The translations under genes were made by a program, and so were the position numbers. A DNA stretch of 31,063 nucleotides, taken from a virus. The notes beneath the pieces were generated by a model. It saw only the letters and a program-made list of their open reading frames with translations, was not told the DNA's origin and searched no databases. Where the stretch lies: positions 1 to 31,063 of the IMG/VR virus record IMGVR_UViG_3300031566_005779; one strand, written 5' to 3'. Every line of letters starts with the position of its first letter. Position 1 is the stretch's first letter. Of this stretch, positions 23,681-30,957 are shown piece by piece.

Positions 23681-23706
23681 AAAAGCCTCAAGGTAACTTG
23701 AGGCTT
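23678..23706 (-). terminator. terminator of the accessory (Tad/GroES) operon
   Basis: A perfect ten-pair stem AAGCCTCAAG / CTTGAGGCTT (23683-23692 and 23697-23706) with a four-base loop is followed on the minus strand by a T-run. It closes the operon that ends at 23767 and separates it from the tail genes. Confidence 0.88.
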
Positions 23707-23766: not shown

Positions 23767-23940
23767 CTATACATGCAAATTTTTTCCTATACTGTTCATA
23801 TAACTCTTAGCATTAGTAAAACAATAGTTTAATAGATGTACCTCACGGTCACTTTGTGGTAAACGAATTTTCACATGAACATTCTTTCTATAATGTACAT
23901 ATGCTTCTATATACCTTAGTTTATGAGGTATATCAGTCAC
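23767..23940 (-). CDS. 57-aa basic protein, GTG start
   Basis: A frame of 57 codons opens with GTG that overlaps the stop of the Acb2/Tad1-like gene (TAGTG) and ends 60 bases before the terminator stem. The peptide is basic (RYIEAYVHYRKNVHVKIR, then a helical LLNYCFTNAKSYMNSIGK). The stop-start overlap and filling of an otherwise empty 3' end favour a real gene, but the non-ATG start and lack of a recognised family leave doubt. If real, it is co-translated with the candidate signal sponge. Confidence 0.45.
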   Translation of the reverse strand: MTDIPHKLRYIEAYVHYRKNVHVKIRLPQSDREVHLLNYCFTNAKSYMNSIGKNLHV

Positions 23941-24389
23941 TAGTCAGCTTTATCAATCCTTGTCTCTAAAATCTTAGAGTAATGTTGCATCGTACTTAGC
24001 TGTAATTGTAAAATGCTTACTTCACTAGCTGGTACTTTTTTTGCCTCAAGTGCATTAGTCAACGCTGTTATCTTTACGTCAAGGTCTTCCTTTTCAATTC
24101 TCAATCTATCAAGGAATGTTGCAGATGGTCTGTATGCTTTATCAAAAACATGTTTAGGACTCATTGAAATATACCCTTCATGATCAGGATGATTCGGTTG
24201 ACTTAATGGATCTGCTTCATATTCCACTAAATAAACTACCTCATCAGGATTTTCATCTTCAGGCACATCCCAACCTCTATAAGCACAATATCCCTTCTTG
24301 GTCATCTCTACGGCTTTGATGTTTTTTGTTCCAGCGTATTGAGTCATTTGACTTACAATAGCACTACCGTTAACGGCTGTATCATTCAT
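23940..24389 (-). CDS. Acb2/Tad1-hairpin-domain protein (candidate cyclic-nucleotide sponge)
   Basis: A 149-aa protein of two parts. Residues about 20-88 are a beta domain with YRGWDVPEDENPDEVVYLVEY and HEGYISMSPKHVFDKAYRP, a module often found in phages joined either to DUF2829 or to a helical hairpin. Residues about 90-148 are a two-helix hairpin (FLDRLRIEKEDLDVKITAL, then a turn and STMQHYSKILETRI), matching the Acb2/Tad1 hairpin pattern. Acb2 and Tad1 bind and sequester cyclic nucleotide signals of CBASS and Thoeris defence. The gene lies directly downstream of a Tad2-like gene, which strengthens the reading. An AACCAACA box lies 12 bases before the ATG. Not shown: which ligand, if any, is bound. 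Confidence 0.65.
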   Translation of the reverse strand: MNDTAVNGSAIVSQMTQYAGTKNIKAVEMTKKGYCAYRGWDVPEDENPDEVVYLVEYEADPLSQPNHPDHEGYISMSPKHVFDKAYRPSATFLDRLRIEKEDLDVKITALTNALEAKKVPASEVSILQLQLSTMQHYSKILETRIDKAD

Positions 24390-24413
24390 AATTATAATTT
24401 TTGTTGGTTAATA

Positions 24414-24821
24414 TTAATCTAAAATTTTCCAATCAGTAGCTAATGTATCAGAAGATGATGCTACCCACCCATTAATATTATTTTCTCTATCTACAATAGC
24501 CATCTGATTACTATATTTAATTGATTGTGCAACTGTTACAGCAGGCCCCTTAATTAAATGAGAAGTAGCTTCAACAGCTTCTTGTTCTAATTTAGCTCTA
24601 GCAATAAACTCATCCTTAACTGATTGAGGTAATGATTGCATCTTAGGAACAATTTCTATATCAATGTTAGCGGGAATTTGCATAAATACAAACATCCCTT
24701 TACCATTCCATCCTGAACGCGCTACACGCTCACCATTTTTTAAAGCAGCAATAGCTTGCCCATAATTACCACGACCTAAGTGTAATGCACCATAAGGTCC
24801 TGGTGAAGTTGATTCACTCAT
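24414..24821 (-). CDS. tad2: DUF2829 / Tad2-like anti-Thoeris protein
   Basis: A 135-aa protein matching DUF2829: YGQAIAALKNGERVARSGWN (20-39) continuing GKGMFVF, a variable helical insert (65-90), then NQMAIVD and the closing signature GWVASSSDTLATDW (118-131). Tad2 proteins of this family form tetramers that trap gcADPR signals made by Thoeris ThsB and can also bind CBASS messengers, blocking suicide signalling. The N-terminal 15 residues are low-complexity. An AACCAACA box lies four bases before the ATG. Neighbour: an Acb2/Tad1-like gene. Family call is strong; the defence target in this host is inferred. Confidence 0.82.
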   Translation of the reverse strand: MSESTSPGPYGALHLGRGNYGQAIAALKNGERVARSGWNGKGMFVFMQIPANIDIEIVPKMQSLPQSVKDEFIARAKLEQEAVEATSHLIKGPAVTVAQSIKYSNQMAIVDRENNINGWVASSSDTLATDWKILD

Positions 24822-24838
24822 AATATGTTGGTTTTGTG

Positions 24839-25168
24839 TTAATGTATTACTGAACGTAATCTACTTAACTGGTTATTTAATTCCATTAATAATTTTGATT
24901 TAGTGTCTGCTTCTGAATGTAATGCATCTAATACATTACTACAATTTACTTTATCAGGTTCTTCGCATAATTTATTATTCATCTGGGATCCAGCTAAATC
25001 ATCAATCATGTTACGCAAGCATAGGACATGTTCAGCCAATTGCTCATTACTACTCTTAGTTCTTTCATGAAGGTTAGCAAAGTTATGCGATGCATCCACC
25101 TTTGTTTTAGCTGACAATGCGGGACCTCTATCATGTCCCGCTGCTGTCGGATTATTTTCTTCAAACAT
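24839..25168 (-). CDS. hypothetical helical protein, 109 aa
   Basis: A polar protein with a disordered N-terminus (MFEENNPTAAGHDRGPAL) and a mostly helical, probably coiled-coil remainder (NLHERTKSSNEQLAEHVLCL; KSKLLMELNNQLSRLRSVI). An AACCAACA box lies four bases before the ATG. Its position between the anchored membrane protein and the Tad2-like gene puts it in the accessory operon. No family recognised. Confidence 0.6.
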   Translation of the reverse strand: MFEENNPTAAGHDRGPALSAKTKVDASHNFANLHERTKSSNEQLAEHVLCLRNMIDDLAGSQMNNKLCEEPDKVNCSNVLDALHSEADTKSKLLMELNNQLSRLRSVIH

Positions 25169-25189: not shown

Positions 25190-25792
25190 TTAAAAGAAAA
25201 GAAGGTAACTGACTACAGCTGCAGCAAGTATTAAAATACCCATTGTAACATATACCATAGTATTACCATCTTCGGTTAATTCTTCTACAGGATCCATAGG
25301 ATCAGGATTAGCATCAAAAGCAGCTTTGGTTTCACATGGCTCAGTTACTTCTGGCTTTGTGGTAAAGGAGCTATCCGCCTCTACTTTCTCAGGAACTTTT
25401 GGTGCAGGCTTGTTAGTATCAATAGCAGCCTCAGCCATATCAATCTTTTCCTTTACTATTTCTGGAAAGGTTGGTTTGGCGTTTGGTTTAGGCACAACCT
25501 TAACAGGACCTTCACCAACTACAGTTACTGGAGTTACAGGTTTAGTTTTTTTACTTGGTTTACGCTGCTTATTGTGAAACTTTTCATACGGAACATCTTT
25601 TAATTCAGTAATCGGGATTTCTATCTCGAACCTTTTATATCTAGGTTTTATAATAGCAATTTTTCCTTTTACTTTAATTACCGTTCCATAAATTGGTTTA
25701 GGAGATTTTTGCAATCTTTCTGGGAGTTTTTTCCCAATTAATTCTACGTAGTCATTCTTCTGAATTTGACCATCAGCTCTTAATTTTGTCAT
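25190..25792 (-). CDS. C-terminally anchored membrane protein with SH3/KOW-like domain
   Basis: A 200-aa protein. Residues 10-70 look like a small beta-barrel of SH3/KOW type (DYVELIGKK, YGTVIKVKGKIAIIKPRYK, EIEIPITELKDV). A Lys/Pro-rich linker (75-110) and an acidic segment (115-178) follow, and the last 22 residues (179-200, VYVTMGILILAAAVVSYLLF) form a membrane anchor at the very C-terminus. The topology would leave the folded domain in the cytoplasm. It comes right after the GroES-like gene. It may hold a phage or host nucleic-acid process at the membrane, but no function is known to me. Confidence 0.55.
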   Translation of the reverse strand: MTKLRADGQIQKNDYVELIGKKLPERLQKSPKPIYGTVIKVKGKIAIIKPRYKRFEIEIPITELKDVPYEKFHNKQRKPSKKTKPVTPVTVVGEGPVKVVPKPNAKPTFPEIVKEKIDMAEAAIDTNKPAPKVPEKVEADSSFTTKPEVTEPCETKAAFDANPDPMDPVEELTEDGNTMVYVTMGILILAAAVVSYLLFF

Positions 25793-25813: not shown

Positions 25814-26125
25814 TTACTCTATTGTACCCCACACATCGGAGTCTCTCAATAAATAGTATTCTTCACCATCAATCTCCACTTCCATACCATGTTTTACATA
25901 ACGAACTTTCTCTCCTGCCCGACACGCATTCTCTACTAGGATGCTATTCTCCATTCTACCTGGACCTACAGCAACAACAGTCCCCCCTTCAGGAGCTTCT
26001 TGTTGGTCATCTGGTAAAATAATACCACCCTTACTTTTTTCTTCTTTCTCAAATTTTTTGATTAAGACCCTATTTTCTTTTAATTTTACTGACGTTACTT
26101 CAGTAACTTCTTTTACTTCACTCAT
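25814..26125 (-). CDS. GroES-like co-chaperonin
   Basis: A 103-aa protein with the Cpn10 plan: ENRVLIKKFEKEEKSKGGII (17-36) carries the mobile loop with G33-G34-I-I-L before PDD, the element that docks on GroEL; then PEGGTVVAVGPGR (45-57) and the C-terminal strands EIDGEEYYLLRDSDVWGTI (84-102). Length and domain order match bacterial GroES; an N-terminal extension of about 12 residues is added, and the roof loop differs. Phages such as T4 encode a co-chaperonin (gp31) to fold capsid protein with host GroEL, so a similar role is plausible. First gene of the accessory operon, with an AACCAACA box four bases before the ATG. Confidence 0.85.
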   Translation of the reverse strand: MSEVKEVTEVTSVKLKENRVLIKKFEKEEKSKGGIILPDDQQEAPEGGTVVAVGPGRMENSILVENACRAGEKVRYVKHGMEVEIDGEEYYLLRDSDVWGTIE

Positions 26126-26200: not shown

Positions 26201-26548
26201 TTATTTAGTGCTTTTGAGAATCTCGATTGCTCTTTCCATTCCTTCCCTTCCATCAAATGAATTGTGGATGACTATATCAATCCCATTCTCTTGAGTAACT
26301 TTTGGTTGACAATGACATCCTTGGTCGTGTAAATGATCTGGTTCATTAATGGGACGGATATGCCACTCTTCAGGATAATCTTGAAAGACTCCCCACCCAC
26401 CAAACTGAGGCATCTCTTCACAGCATTTCTGACAGAAAGAGTTTCCATCATCATCGGCACCATAATCCTCTTTCTCAGGATCAAAGTAATTACTGCAGCT
26501 TTCACACTTGTAATTATTCTCGTTGATATTTATTTCTTTGCCTTCCAT
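26201..26548 (-). CDS. zinc-binding protein, 115 aa
   Basis: An acidic protein with an N-terminal CxxC pair (C15, C18) and a second CxxCC (C39, C42, C43), spaced as in a small zinc finger of LIM/zinc-ribbon type. Further on, HDQGCHCQPK could add metal ligands. The C-terminal 30 residues are alpha/beta. It overlaps the metallopeptidase gene by 19 bases, so the pair is co-translated and may act together. No named family recognised. Confidence 0.6.
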   Translation of the reverse strand: MEGKEININENNYKCESCSNYFDPEKEDYGADDDGNSFCQKCCEEMPQFGGWGVFQDYPEEWHIRPINEPDHLHDQGCHCQPKVTQENGIDIVIHNSFDGREGMERAIEILKSTK

Positions 26549-26964
26549 TTCGCTTGTTTCTTTATTAGATTATCGTGATAACTATATATTTCTTCAGTCA
26601 GCCAATCAATCAAATGAGCATAAGCTTCTTCACTAGAGTGGCTGAAATGAAGTCCTCTATGTTCCAGTATGTTTACCGCTAGATGGAATATCTCGTGAGC
26701 AATCACACCTCTGGTAACATTAAATGGTAGTATGACAAAGAGTATATTATCAGCGTGAAATACCATAGCATTAGCACCTTTGAAGTAATCCTCAGCTCGC
26801 TTGAGATTCCCATCCTCGTGCTTATCTGCAAAAGGTTGAAGTAAATCTAATTCTCTAGCTGCAGTGATTGGACCATCTTTGGCAAACACTAAATTAATTT
26901 TTTCCTTGAATACAGGAACTTGAATGTGGTCTATAAATAATAGAGGAAACGGTTTCTTGGCCAT
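26530..26964 (-). CDS. HExxH zincin metallopeptidase-like protein
   Basis: A 144-aa protein with a zincin active site: HEIFH (90-94) gives two zinc histidines and the catalytic E91, and SEEAYAHLIDWL (111-122) supplies a likely third ligand, E112 or E113, in a gluzincin-like layout. The N-terminal half holds a short beta sheet (PLLFIDHIQVPVF; AMVFHADNILFVIL). No signal peptide is present, so it should act inside the cell. Similar short zincins occur in phages without known targets. It begins only about ten bases after a hairpin terminator, so expression may depend on read-through. Confidence 0.65.
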   Translation of the reverse strand: MAKKPFPLLFIDHIQVPVFKEKINLVFAKDGPITAARELDLLQPFADKHEDGNLKRAEDYFKGANAMVFHADNILFVILPFNVTRGVIAHEIFHLAVNILEHRGLHFSHSSEEAYAHLIDWLTEEIYSYHDNLIKKQAKWKAKK

Positions 26965-28373: not shown

Positions 28374-28940
28374 ATGGCAAAGAAAAAAGAATATAAATCA
28401 CAATGTTGCAATGCAGCTATCTACACTGATTCAGAAGGTGCTCATTGCGGAAGTTGTGATGGTAATCCACATCGCTCAGATGATTACAACGAAGGCTGTG
28501 GTGATGAATCTTGTGACGGAACGTGTAATTGGTGTAATAAGCACGAACCACTCGAAGAACAGTATATGCAACAGGAATCTTTTAAGTATTATGATATAGA
28601 AGCGTTATCTGATTTCACCAAAGAATTAATAACTATTACTGATATGGCGAGCTTGCATATGAATGCTATAGCACCTGATAAGCAATGGTATCCAACCCAA
28701 TTCGGTAACATAGTTGTAAAAAAAGATATTATTATTTTGATTACTTATTTTACAAACGGTGTTGACTTCATGCAGCCTTTAATTCACTTATCTGGATTAG
28801 GTGACTGCACATTCATTGCTATTAATTATAATCAAAATCAAAAGGATGAATACAAAAACGTAAAAGGTGCTTTATCAGATTCAGTATTACGAGAAATGTT
28901 AACTGCGTTAAATAGAAACAAACCAAAAATAACACTATGA
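28374..28940 (+). CDS. cysteine-rich N-terminal, hypothetical early protein, 188 aa
   Basis: The N-terminal 58 residues hold eight cysteines (C11, C12, C25, C28, C42, C47, C51, C54) in CxxC-like pairs, suggesting a small zinc-binding domain. Residues 70-188 form an alpha/beta domain with a hydrophobic strand VVKKDIIILITYF and a helical C-terminus. No family recognised. It is the first gene right of the strand switch, read from a leader with the shared early motifs, so expression is probably early. It overlaps the next gene by ATGA. Confidence 0.6.
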   Translation: MAKKKEYKSQCCNAAIYTDSEGAHCGSCDGNPHRSDDYNEGCGDESCDGTCNWCNKHEPLEEQYMQQESFKYYDIEALSDFTKELITITDMASLHMNAIAPDKQWYPTQFGNIVVKKDIIILITYFTNGVDFMQPLIHLSGLGDCTFIAINYNQNQKDEYKNVKGALSDSVLREMLTALNRNKPKITL

Positions 28941-29119
28941 TTATATCAGACTTAAAAGTAATGCACAACAACCGCGGCTGGTACGTGGGCAGAACATATC
29001 AAGACAACGAAATGGGAGACATTGATTTCCCATACTCAAGAGACAGCGGATACTTCGATACTGAAGAGGAAGCTCAAGCTTACTTGGATGCTCCTGTTGT
29101 TACTGCAATCTATCATTAA
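28937..29119 (+). CDS. small conserved phage protein, 60 aa
   Basis: A 60-aa protein with GWYVGRTYQDNE and FPYSRDSGYFDTEEEAQAYL. The pattern of G-W-Y-x-G-R, PYSR-(D/E)-S-x-YF and an EEA-x-x-x-L helix recurs in small phage proteins of unknown function. It overlaps the 188-aa gene by ATGA, so the two are translationally coupled. Confidence 0.65.
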   Translation: MIISDLKVMHNNRGWYVGRTYQDNEMGDIDFPYSRDSGYFDTEEEAQAYLDAPVVTAIYH

Positions 29120-29128
29120 TCACGCAGA

Positions 29129-29155
29129 GTTGGTTAGCGTGAACAAATAACCAAC
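29129..29155 (+). repeat. hairpin containing AACCAAC
   Basis: GTTGGTT / AACCAAC (29129-29135 and 29149-29155) form a seven-pair stem with a 13-base loop in the leader of the 20-aa frame. The right arm with its next base is the same AACCAACA octamer that marks minus-strand starts, here on the plus strand, 17 bases before an ATG. Confidence 0.45.
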
Positions 29156-29173
29156 AGCTTAAAACCTACCATT

Positions 29174-29236
29174 ATGGATGAGCAAGAATACGATGACTAC
29201 TTGAGCTTGATAGAGCACGGTGTCACACAGCATTAA
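29174..29236 (+). CDS. 20-aa acidic micro-protein
   Basis: ATG to TAA encodes a peptide starting MDEQEYDDYLSLIEHG. It is preceded by CTTAAAACCTACCATT, similar to the ACTTAAACT box before other early starts, and followed by a terminator 11 bases on. Leader context and placement favour translation, but the small size leaves doubt. Confidence 0.4.
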   Translation: MDEQEYDDYLSLIEHGVTQH

Positions 29237-29247
29237 GCTGAAGACGA

Positions 29248-29275
29248 GCAGAGCATAGTCTCTGCTTTCTTTTTT
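29248..29275 (+). terminator. rightward terminator after the first early genes
   Basis: GCAGAG-CATAGT-CTCTGC is followed by TTTCTTTTTT on the plus strand. It ends the transcript that begins before 28374 and lies just before the second leader box. Confidence 0.85.
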
Positions 29276-29286
29276 CTCAGCCGTAA

Positions 29287-29301
29287 ACCACAACCCTTTC
29301 T
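29287..29301 (+). promoter_or_regulatory. leader box copy 2 (ACCACAACCCTTTCT)
   Basis: Identical to the copy at 28325 and placed 33 bases before the ATG at 29335, immediately after a terminator, as expected for the start of a new transcription unit. CCTT in the box can pair with AAGG just downstream. Confidence 0.65.
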
Positions 29302-29334
29302 AACAAGGAAAATACTAACTTAAACTCACATAAT

Positions 29335-29595
29335 ATGATACAAGTATTAGCACCATCGGAACTAAAAGATTTAATCAATGAAATTTACTACAGGCAATGT
29401 ATACAGTACAACACTCCTGATAAAATAGAGGCTGTGCTGTTTGAGATAGATAATATCCGCAAGCAATATGAGATACAGGAAGAATATCACTTGTGTCAAA
29501 TATGCAACGAGCTTAAGCAAGAGCTTATTGAAGAGCGTGATGTCAGAGTTGCCAATGATTTGGCAGACGATTTAATCTCTTTACTACAATGTTAG
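29335..29595 (+). CDS. hypothetical helical early protein, 86 aa
   Basis: An acidic, mostly helical protein (SELKDLINEIYYRQCIQYN, CNELKQELIEERD) with a central YHLCQIC. Preceded by leader box copy 2 and by AACTTAAACTCACA next to the ATG. Its stop codon overlaps the ATG of the 43-aa membrane peptide. No family recognised. Confidence 0.6.
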   Translation: MIQVLAPSELKDLINEIYYRQCIQYNTPDKIEAVLFEIDNIRKQYEIQEEYHLCQICNELKQELIEERDVRVANDLADDLISLLQC

Positions 29596-29720
29596 GCTTC
29601 ATCATAACAGCTGTCCTGCTTGTGTGGGCAGCTGTTTATGATTACAAGCACAAGAACACAAGGGATTTCTCAAGACTTCCTGAAAGAAACTATTCATTAA
29701 TCTATAACTTAAACTTATAA
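29589..29720 (+). CDS. 43-aa single-pass membrane peptide
   Basis: ATG lies in the last codons of the 86-aa gene (CAATGTTAG) and the frame ends two bases before the next ATG. Residues 1-17 (MLGFIITAVLLVWAAVY) are a clear membrane segment followed by a basic patch (DYKHKNTRD). A coupled, well-fitted frame with a membrane segment argues for a real gene. A small early membrane peptide might modify the host envelope or exclude other phages; that is a guess. Confidence 0.55.
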   Translation: MLGFIITAVLLVWAAVYDYKHKNTRDFSRLPERNYSLIYNLNL

Positions 29721-29722
29721 CT

Positions 29723-29962
29723 ATGGCAAACAAAGCAATAGACCAAGACAAACATTGGCAATACAATAAGAACTTCATCAACTGGGTAGTAGATGTTACC
29801 AAGAAATCAGTTGAGGAGGGAGGCTTAGCAGATGATGCAATCCAACACCTAAAGAACAGGTCATTGGAAACAATCATCAACCTGAAAGCAGGTGCTAAAG
29901 TCTACAAGCACAGAGCAGAGCATATGCTTGATGCAATCAGAATAATAAGAGGACTTTCATAG
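29723..29962 (+). CDS. hypothetical early protein, 79 aa
   Basis: A small helical protein (QYNKNFINWVVDVTKKSVEE, then AIQHLKNRSLETIINLKAG) with charged ends. The box AACTTAAACTTATA sits just before the ATG and overlaps the end of the membrane-peptide gene. No family recognised. Confidence 0.6.
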   Translation: MANKAIDQDKHWQYNKNFINWVVDVTKKSVEEGGLADDAIQHLKNRSLETIINLKAGAKVYKHRAEHMLDAIRIIRGLS

Positions 29963-29978
29963 TCTTCTTATTTAACTC

Positions 29979-29993
29979 ACCACAACCCTTTCT
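29979..29993 (+). promoter_or_regulatory. leader box copy 3 (ACCACAACCCTTTCT)
   Basis: Third identical copy, 50 bases before the ATG at 30044. Here CCCTTT of the box can pair with AAAGGG nine bases on, giving a six-pair hairpin in the leader. Confidence 0.65.
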
Positions 29994-30043
29994 TGTTTAA
30001 AAAGGGGATTAACCTCTTTTAATTAATTAAATACTTTCATACC

Positions 30044-30445
30044 ATGAAAATCAAATTATTACGCTCATACCGTAGCAAAAACGGTAACGCAACTTTCGTA
30101 TACGCTGTTAGCGGTAACCAAGCAGACCTTGAGGCTTTCAAATCAGCACAAGGCGAGTATTACAGAGAAGATGAGAAGACTGGTAGTCCTCTTTGGTTCA
30201 CAACTCGTTGCGTAGGCGATAACGGCAAGCTTATCATTACAACCAACGGAAAGGTTGTACCTGATATGTCAGCGTTTGACCAAGCTGCATCTATTGCTGC
30301 GCAATATGGTGGAAACTTTGGGCAAGAGCTTGCAAGACAAGCTGCGCAATCAATCTTGGGCACACAGCCTACGGTTGAAGAGCCTGCTTCTGCTCCTGTT
30401 GCATCTGCACCAGTTGATGCTCCGTCTATTGAAGACGCTGAGTAG
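30044..30445 (+). CDS. hypothetical early protein, 133 aa
   Basis: A protein with a basic beta-rich N-terminal domain (KIKLLRSYRSKNGNATFVYA; PLWFTTRCVGDNGKLIITTN), a helical middle (FDQAASIAAQYGGNFGQELA) and a disordered Ala/Pro/Glu tail ending SIEDAE. A beta domain plus an acidic tail is reminiscent of single-stranded DNA-binding proteins, but no aromatic OB-fold signature is certain. It has its own leader box and a strong terminator, so it is a monocistronic, probably highly expressed gene. Confidence 0.6.
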   Translation: MKIKLLRSYRSKNGNATFVYAVSGNQADLEAFKSAQGEYYREDEKTGSPLWFTTRCVGDNGKLIITTNGKVVPDMSAFDQAASIAAQYGGNFGQELARQAAQSILGTQPTVEEPASAPVASAPVDAPSIEDAE

Positions 30446-30452
30446 TCTAATT

Positions 30453-30485
30453 GAAACCCGAGCTTCGTGCTTGGGTTTCTTTTTT
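30453..30485 (+). terminator. strong rightward terminator
   Basis: GAAACCCGAG / CTTGGGTTTC (ten pairs with one G-U) with a seven-base loop is followed by six T. It lies directly after the 133-aa gene. Confidence 0.9.
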
Positions 30486-30528
30486 CTCAAAACACAAAGG
30501 TGTTCGCTAACGCTCACGTCTTTATTAC

Positions 30529-30548
30529 GCGTGACTTATGTGTCACGC
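30529..30548. repeat. perfect hairpin in gap before the basic protein gene
   Basis: GCGTGAC-TTATGT-GTCACGC gives seven pairs. It is GC-rich relative to its surroundings, with no T-run, so it is probably not a terminator. The rest of 30486-30648 shows no gene. Confidence 0.5.
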
Positions 30549-30636
30549 TGCTTCCCCAACTCCCCTGACGGGACAGCATTTTTTACTATCATCTTCTTCT
30601 CTCAAGCGTTGATTACACACTCTCATTATTTTTATT

Positions 30637-30644
30637 TATATTTG
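30637..30644 (+). promoter_or_regulatory. -7 promoter element for the basic protein gene
   Basis: TATATTTG matches TAnnTTTG, and only four bases separate it from the ATG at 30649, suggesting a leaderless mRNA. A good -33 box is not seen. Confidence 0.45.
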
Positions 30645-30648
30645 TCTT

Positions 30649-30957
30649 ATGGCAGCATCAGGAACTAACCCAAAGAAACGTAACTCTAACGCAGGCAAAA
30701 GCACTGGCAAGAGTACATCAGCTAAATACTTCGCTTCTCACCCTGAAGCAAGGAAGAAGAAGAATGCATACAACAAAGCTTACCACGCCACACCAGAGCG
30801 TAAGAAGTATAGAGCAGAGCTTAACGCTAGTAACCGCTCTAACCCTAATGGTAAAGGTCAAGACAAGAGCCACACTAAATCAGGTTCTATTGTTAATGAG
30901 CCACGCTCTAGTAACCGCGCCAGAAATGGAAAAGGCAATAAGCCTAAGAAGAAGTAG
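30649..30957 (+). CDS. small highly basic phage protein, 102 aa
   Basis: A lysine- and asparagine-rich protein with ASHPEARKKKNAYNKAYHAT (29-48), PERKKYRAELNASNR, DKSHTKSGSIV (72-82) and a SSNRARNGKG tail. Similar short basic proteins with a YHxTPERKKYRxEL and a D-x-S-H-x-K-x-G motif occur in many marine and Bacteroidota phages, with no known function. The charge fits DNA or RNA binding. It could be an internal virion protein or a nucleic-acid-binding regulator. Confidence 0.65.
   Translation: MAASGTNPKKRNSNAGKSTGKSTSAKYFASHPEARKKKNAYNKAYHATPERKKYRAELNASNRSNPNGKGQDKSHTKSGSIVNEPRSSNRARNGKGNKPKKK

Follow-up and report, generated by a model that had tools for sequence, protein, structure and literature searches.

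Among the described phage sponge proteins, Tad1 and Acb2 both have helical hairpins and assemble as hexamers, and Tad1 is laid out as a beta part followed by its hairpin (PMC12043709). Tad2 binds cyclic dinucleotides via its beta2-beta5 insertion, which is separate from the gcADPR pockets (reviewed in PMC12043709), and Acb4 (PF13876) has been proven biochemically to be a cGAMP sponge (PMC11722364). In the present work a pair of neighbouring phage genes, A and B, was compared with these systems. The pair lies in the window, i.e. the whole stretch of 31,063 nucleotides that was analyzed (an IMG/VR record), and its features are given in Table 1.

Table 1. Features of the gene A and gene B region in the window, with strand and supporting evidence.
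Feature	Position	Strand	Description	Evidence
Terminator	23683..23706	-	intrinsic; 10-pair stem and T run, ~230 bp past gene A	
Gene A	23940..24389	-	beta domain and PF21825 hairpin, 149 aa	ORF, Pfam, phrog_872, model
Gene A, helical hairpin	23946..24116	-	PF21825 (crAss001_48), residues 92-148	
Gene A, beta domain	24126..24347	-	residues ~15-88 (~72 residues)	phrog_872 N-half
Region 5' of gene A start	24390..24417	-	AACCAACA motif	
Gene B	24414..24821	-	stand-alone Tad2, 135 aa	PF11195, SptTad2 match, predicted fold
Gene B, insertion	24528..24674	-	residues ~50-98, PKMQSLPQSVKDE motif, extra helix 66-89	
Region 5' of gene B start	24822..24849	-	AACCAACA motif	
Gene C	24839..25168	-	109-aa orphan immediately upstream of gene B, AACCAACA start motif	
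GroES co-chaperonin	25814..26125	-	phage protein of the same gene run	PF00166 3.9e-21
HExxH protein	26530-26964	-	AHEIFHLA motif	phrog_1365

The first-pass annotation had placed two consecutive sponge genes here, and both open reading frames were found as a tight pair, separated by 24 bp and with gene B transcribed first. The same genes are present at 100% identity on a longer sister contig of 52,953 bases. The host of the phage is most likely a Bacteroidota bacterium, because the large terminase of the window distantly resembles those of crAss-like and Flavobacterium phages (~25% identity).

Gene B is a genuine Tad2 and a fresh member of the known family, as had been proposed (under the name DUF2829). 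It matches PF11195 at 7.4e-19 (68.5 bits, curated cut-off 25), and a sequence search of the PDB gave SptTad2 at 4e-17, with AcrIIA7/HgmTad2 and ModTad2 as the other nearest solved chains; a profile built from gene B and 51 relatives attains 1.9e-41 against the solved Tad2 chains. All columns that are invariant in the 52 sequences are kept, including W38, N39, G40, W119, D125, D130 and W131, and the conserved residues of GWNGKGM, a motif that the first reading had pointed out, and of W..S..D....DW are present. The AlphaFold2 model (pLDDT 89) has the predicted Tad2 fold and was matched by Foldseek to 8wjd, SptTad2 with cGG, at 3e-10 (TMt 0.77) and to 23 more Tad2 chains at E <= 0.001. The insertion sits between beta2 and the last strands and is of the SLPQSVK type that is common to gene B, HgmTad2 and SptTad2, while SPO1 Tad2 and ModTad2 can be aligned to gene B only outside it. 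Dinucleotide binding by Tad2 is ascribed to such an insertion in the review cited above, and gene B is predicted to bind both gcADPR-type signals and cyclic dinucleotides.

Gene A consists of a beta domain and a two-helix hairpin, and the overall pLDDT of its model is 92. The beta domain has the signature YxGTK...YLVEY...GYISxSPKxVFxxAY, with modelled strands at residues 16-19, 23-30, 51-57 and 74-78; it belongs to no Pfam family and is matched by the N-terminal half of phrog_872 at 1e-23 (profile 7-99 of 172). The remark that this domain is often fused to DUF2829 was right, because phrog_872 pairs this N-terminal half with a C-terminal half that is Tad2. A sequence search of solved structures with gene A gave no credible relative, the matches being to peptide deformylase at 0.03 and to coiled coils at 0.2 or more, and the model gave nothing in the PDB at E <= 0.001 by Foldseek. 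Among its matches to predicted viral proteins were a Tad2-annotated protein and crAss001 gp48.

The hairpin was matched by PF21825 at 4.6e-13 (49.3 bits, curated cut-off 24.8), and its helices, residues 92-115 and 121-148, are modelled with pLDDT 94-98. Its conserved polar positions are R95, E99, R/K106, Q130, Y137 and R144, of which E99 (72/72), Q130 (71/71), R144 (71/71) and R95 (68/71) are nearly invariant. To judge from the residue numbers, R95, E99 and R144 should gather at the open end of the hairpin beside the beta domain, if the helices pair in the antiparallel way of the model, and this cluster is the best candidate for a binding site of gene A. No solved relative of the hairpin was found by sequence.

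The first-pass annotation had read gene A as a beta domain joined to an Acb2/Tad1 hairpin; the beta domain and the two helices are real, and the family of the hairpin is a different one. PF24729 (Acb2_Tad1_hairpin) gave no match to gene A up to E 1 and is absent from the longer sister contig, and the positive control, T4 vs.4 (Acb2), was matched at 1.1e-19. In hhalign the PF21825 sets were linked to the Acb2/Tad1 sets at about 1% probability or less, against 89% for two distant Acb2 branches under the same settings and ~99.6% among stand-alone, beta-fused and Tad2-fused PF21825 hairpins. There was no Acb2/Tad1 protein in the best 50 of 257 weak PDB matches from Foldseek, although a fold of only two helices discriminates poorly. 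Gene A is thus not a member of Acb2/Tad1 by any test made.

On the minus strand the gene run is transcribed in the order HExxH protein, ORF 26201-26548, GroES, a 200-aa protein, gene C, gene B and gene A, followed by the terminator. The AACCAACA motif stands just ahead of the start codons of A, B, C and groES, which is consistent with their joint expression, and the strong terminator is likely the end of the operon. Gene C had no Pfam, phage or viral-contig relative beyond its own lineage; as a possible third sponge it was set aside, since no search gave a relative and its weak PADLOC match (0.017) was judged to be chance. The 200-aa protein (25190-25792), an orphan, is basic at its N-terminus and ends in a hydrophobic, membrane-like segment. 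A 57-aa ORF with a GTG start (23767-23940) overlaps the stop codon of gene A and has no relatives among the loci compared; it may be translationally coupled to gene A or be a chance ORF. At 28374-30957 the strand switches to a block of short plus-strand ORFs, and nothing in PADLOC or PHROG matched those that were tested.

The partners of the beta domain were surveyed by a scan of bacterial genomes for its motif, with gene A as the confirming query, which gave 65 proteins. By purpose-built profiles, 60 of the 65 carry a sponge or PF21825 alongside it: Tad2 in 23, the hairpin in 13, the hairpin with Tad2 in 12, Acb4 in 7, an Acb2/Tad1-like hairpin in 4 and Acb4 with Tad2 in 1. Pfam counts in the same 65 are Tad2 36, PF21825 24, PF13876 8 and PF24729 4, the PF24729 matches within beta fusions being close to the cut-off (23-28 bits). 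Acb2/Tad1-like hairpins come after a gene A-type beta domain in the loci L354 and L355. PF21825 is fused to Acb4 in L194 and, as beta-Acb4-hairpin, in the complete crAss-like genome cr107_1 (L371), and to Tad2 in the orders beta-hairpin-Tad2, Tad2-hairpin and beta-Tad2-hairpin. In Yersinia phage vB_YenM_TG1 the beta domain is fused to an RyR domain (L382 1174-1818; PF02026 3.9e-10), possibly another signal-binding partner. A Foldseek match had raised the suspicion of an RyR-hairpin fusion in this protein, and no PF21825 is present in it.

The notion that genes A and B work as a single unit, or stem from one, draws support from the beta-hairpin-Tad2 single proteins. A plain split of one fused gene was rejected, because the known fusion orders differ from the transcription order in the window, which is Tad2 and then beta-hairpin.

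The neighbours of such genes were counted in 154 distinct loci, each 7.5 kb or longer, with the lineage of the window excluded. In these loci 22 further sponge-type ORFs were found; all 22 share the strand, and 20 lie within 400 bp, where ~2 are expected (p about 5e-18). Tad2, gene A and the fused proteins served as seeds for the viral-contig loci, and gene A was also the query that confirmed the genome sample, so that these counts and those of the preceding survey are not population frequencies. Independent parallels to the pair of the window are L067, where beta-hairpin, Tad2 and Acb4 are adjacent, and L142, where beta-hairpin and Tad2 are neighbours. In L002, which holds the closest relative of gene A, Acb4 comes next, whereas Acb4 was present in 0 of 43 Tad2-seeded records. 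In E. coli phage N4 (33632-34485; L379 1109-1962), gp48 is of the Acb4 family (8.8e-35) and the next gene, gp49, has the beta domain and Tad2 (8e-24).

Sequence comparison also indicates that the modules swap among close kin, because a swapped locus and a mixed clade were both found. The locus, L268 of Wenyingzhuangia (Flavobacteriaceae), which matches that of the window, has a GroES-like protein, an HExxH-type protein and a Tad2 relative, ~50% identical to gene B, ahead of a beta-Tad2 gene in which a gene A-type beta domain (~55%) is fused to a divergent Tad2 in place of the hairpin. In the beta-domain tree, which is built on 69 columns and has many open forks, gene A falls in a five-member clade (support 99) of 3 hairpin and 2 Tad2 members. 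The HExxH protein that adjoins GroES and Tad2 in L268 is a distant relative of the one in the window.

PF21825 occurs mostly as a stand-alone protein of 63-77 aa, and mostly not adjoining sponges, in 13 phage and crAss-like records that were sampled; it is rare in bacterial genomes (4/399 and 2/396). T4 denB.1 (L105 1489-1683) and crAss001 gp48 (L104 1495-1686) are stand-alone members annotated without function. In Klebsiella phage vB_Kpn16-P2 the hairpin gene comes directly after Acb4 and beta-Tad2. The few fusions elsewhere join it to an ATPase, a membrane segment (L112) or a helical protein (L360). The ATPase in the first of these is of ABC type (L261 3362-4195), and in Rhizobium phages Tad2 overlaps an ABC ATPase annotation. 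A literature search, with subscription papers mostly outside its reach, gave nothing on PF21825 or crAss001_48.

On this evidence we propose, with a probability of roughly 0.6, that the operon closes at its 3' end with a counter-signalling cassette formed by genes A and B, in which B, a Tad2, would act as a sponge and A would be a second anti-signalling protein, with a sponge-associated beta adaptor joined to a PF21825 hairpin. A cassette built from interchangeable modules is the best reading of the locus. Gene B would sequester cyclic-ADPR-type signals, as the homotetrameric Tad2 proteins do, and probably, through its insertion, cyclic dinucleotides too. Gene A most likely either traps a further signal at the conserved polar end of its hairpin or builds such pockets by oligomerising, so that its role would be that of an extra decoy or of a partner in pocket building. 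The hairpin is a separate module, distinct from Acb2/Tad1, that is swapped in and out beside Tad2 and Acb4, and most likely A and B, jointly or side by side, blunt abortive infection that is signalled by nucleotides. The analysis shows the families, the make-up of the domains, the pairing of the genes, the swapping of modules and the predicted folds, and from these co-expression, ligand binding by B and any signal binding by A are inferred. A wider proposal is put forward tentatively, at slightly less than even odds. PF21825 hairpins, namely the C-terminus of gene A, T4 denB.1 and crAss001 gp48, may be an unrecognised family of sponges or sponge partners, and the beta domain of phrog_872 a common adaptor to Tad2, Acb4, Acb2/Tad1-like hairpins, PF21825 and, once, RyR, so that modular multi-signal decoys would result.

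The association of the modules fits signal binding and scaffolding by gene A alike. It is possible, if rather unlikely, that both parts of gene A, the beta domain as well as the hairpin, act as scaffolding that oligomerises or steadies the sponge pockets without binding a signal; gene A would then assist B or be a scaffold in its own right. Oligomerisation is common among two-helix hairpins, and the hexamers of the hairpin-bearing Tad1 and Acb2 also speak for such a role, as does the beta domain, which is almost never found alone. However, the hairpin exists as an entire gene of 63-66 aa in T4 (denB.1), crAss001 (gp48) and other phages, and is therefore argued to do something on its own, and the residues that it conserves best (E, Q, R, R) are polar. 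An improbable account gives gene A an unrelated role, with sponge and PF21825 genes brought together merely by the accessory-gene regions of phages. Stand-alone PF21825 genes are indeed neighbours of denB/rIIB in T4-like phages and are flanked by lysin genes in a mycobacteriophage, but single-polypeptide fusions in several orders and with two sponge folds, together with swaps inside one clade, go beyond a shared location. That the hairpin is a true Acb2/Tad1 hairpin drifted past sequence detection, making A Tad1-like, is very improbable: the alike layout of Tad1 and the Acb2/Tad1-like hairpins that L354 and L355 have behind the same beta domain are outweighed by the hhalign result, the different conserved residues and, to a small degree, the fold matches listed.

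One small beta domain is common to three folds that are proven or likely sponges (Tad2, Acb4, Acb2/Tad1-like) and to an uncharacterised hairpin, and these partners replace one another. The pattern speaks for a modular system of decoys and gives a simple route to new anti-signalling proteins, namely to search for the beta domain and see what it is joined to. It is also a first functional lead for denB.1 of T4 and gp48 of crAss001, genes of well-known phages with no role assigned in the records consulted, and gp48-gp49 of N4 (Acb4 family and beta-Tad2) is a ready laboratory pair. The literature searched, which lay mostly outside subscription papers, gave no mention of the beta adaptor, of the link to PF21825 or of fusions with several sponges, and we claim no priority.

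In comparison with the known systems, gene B resembles the described Tad2 proteins (SptTad2, HgmTad2/AcrIIA7, SPO1 Tad2, ModTad2) in sequence, conserved residues and predicted fold and has the insertion of HgmTad2 and SptTad2, but it is longer (135 aa) and has an extra helix inside the insertion. Gene A is like Tad1 in general layout, a beta part and then a C-terminal helical hairpin, whereas its hairpin is PF21825 with no detectable homology and no Tad1 was among the fold matches listed. It shares with Acb2 (PF24729; T4 vs.4) a helical hairpin, and Acb2/Tad1-like hairpins can trail the same beta domain, yet it differs in Pfam match, hhalign result and conserved residues. The proteins crAss001 gp48 and T4 denB.1 have the hairpin family of the gene A C-terminus but without the beta domain. 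Although Acb4 was not found in the longer sister contig of the window lineage, this proven sponge elsewhere bears the beta domain of gene A (L353), or both the beta domain and the hairpin (L371).
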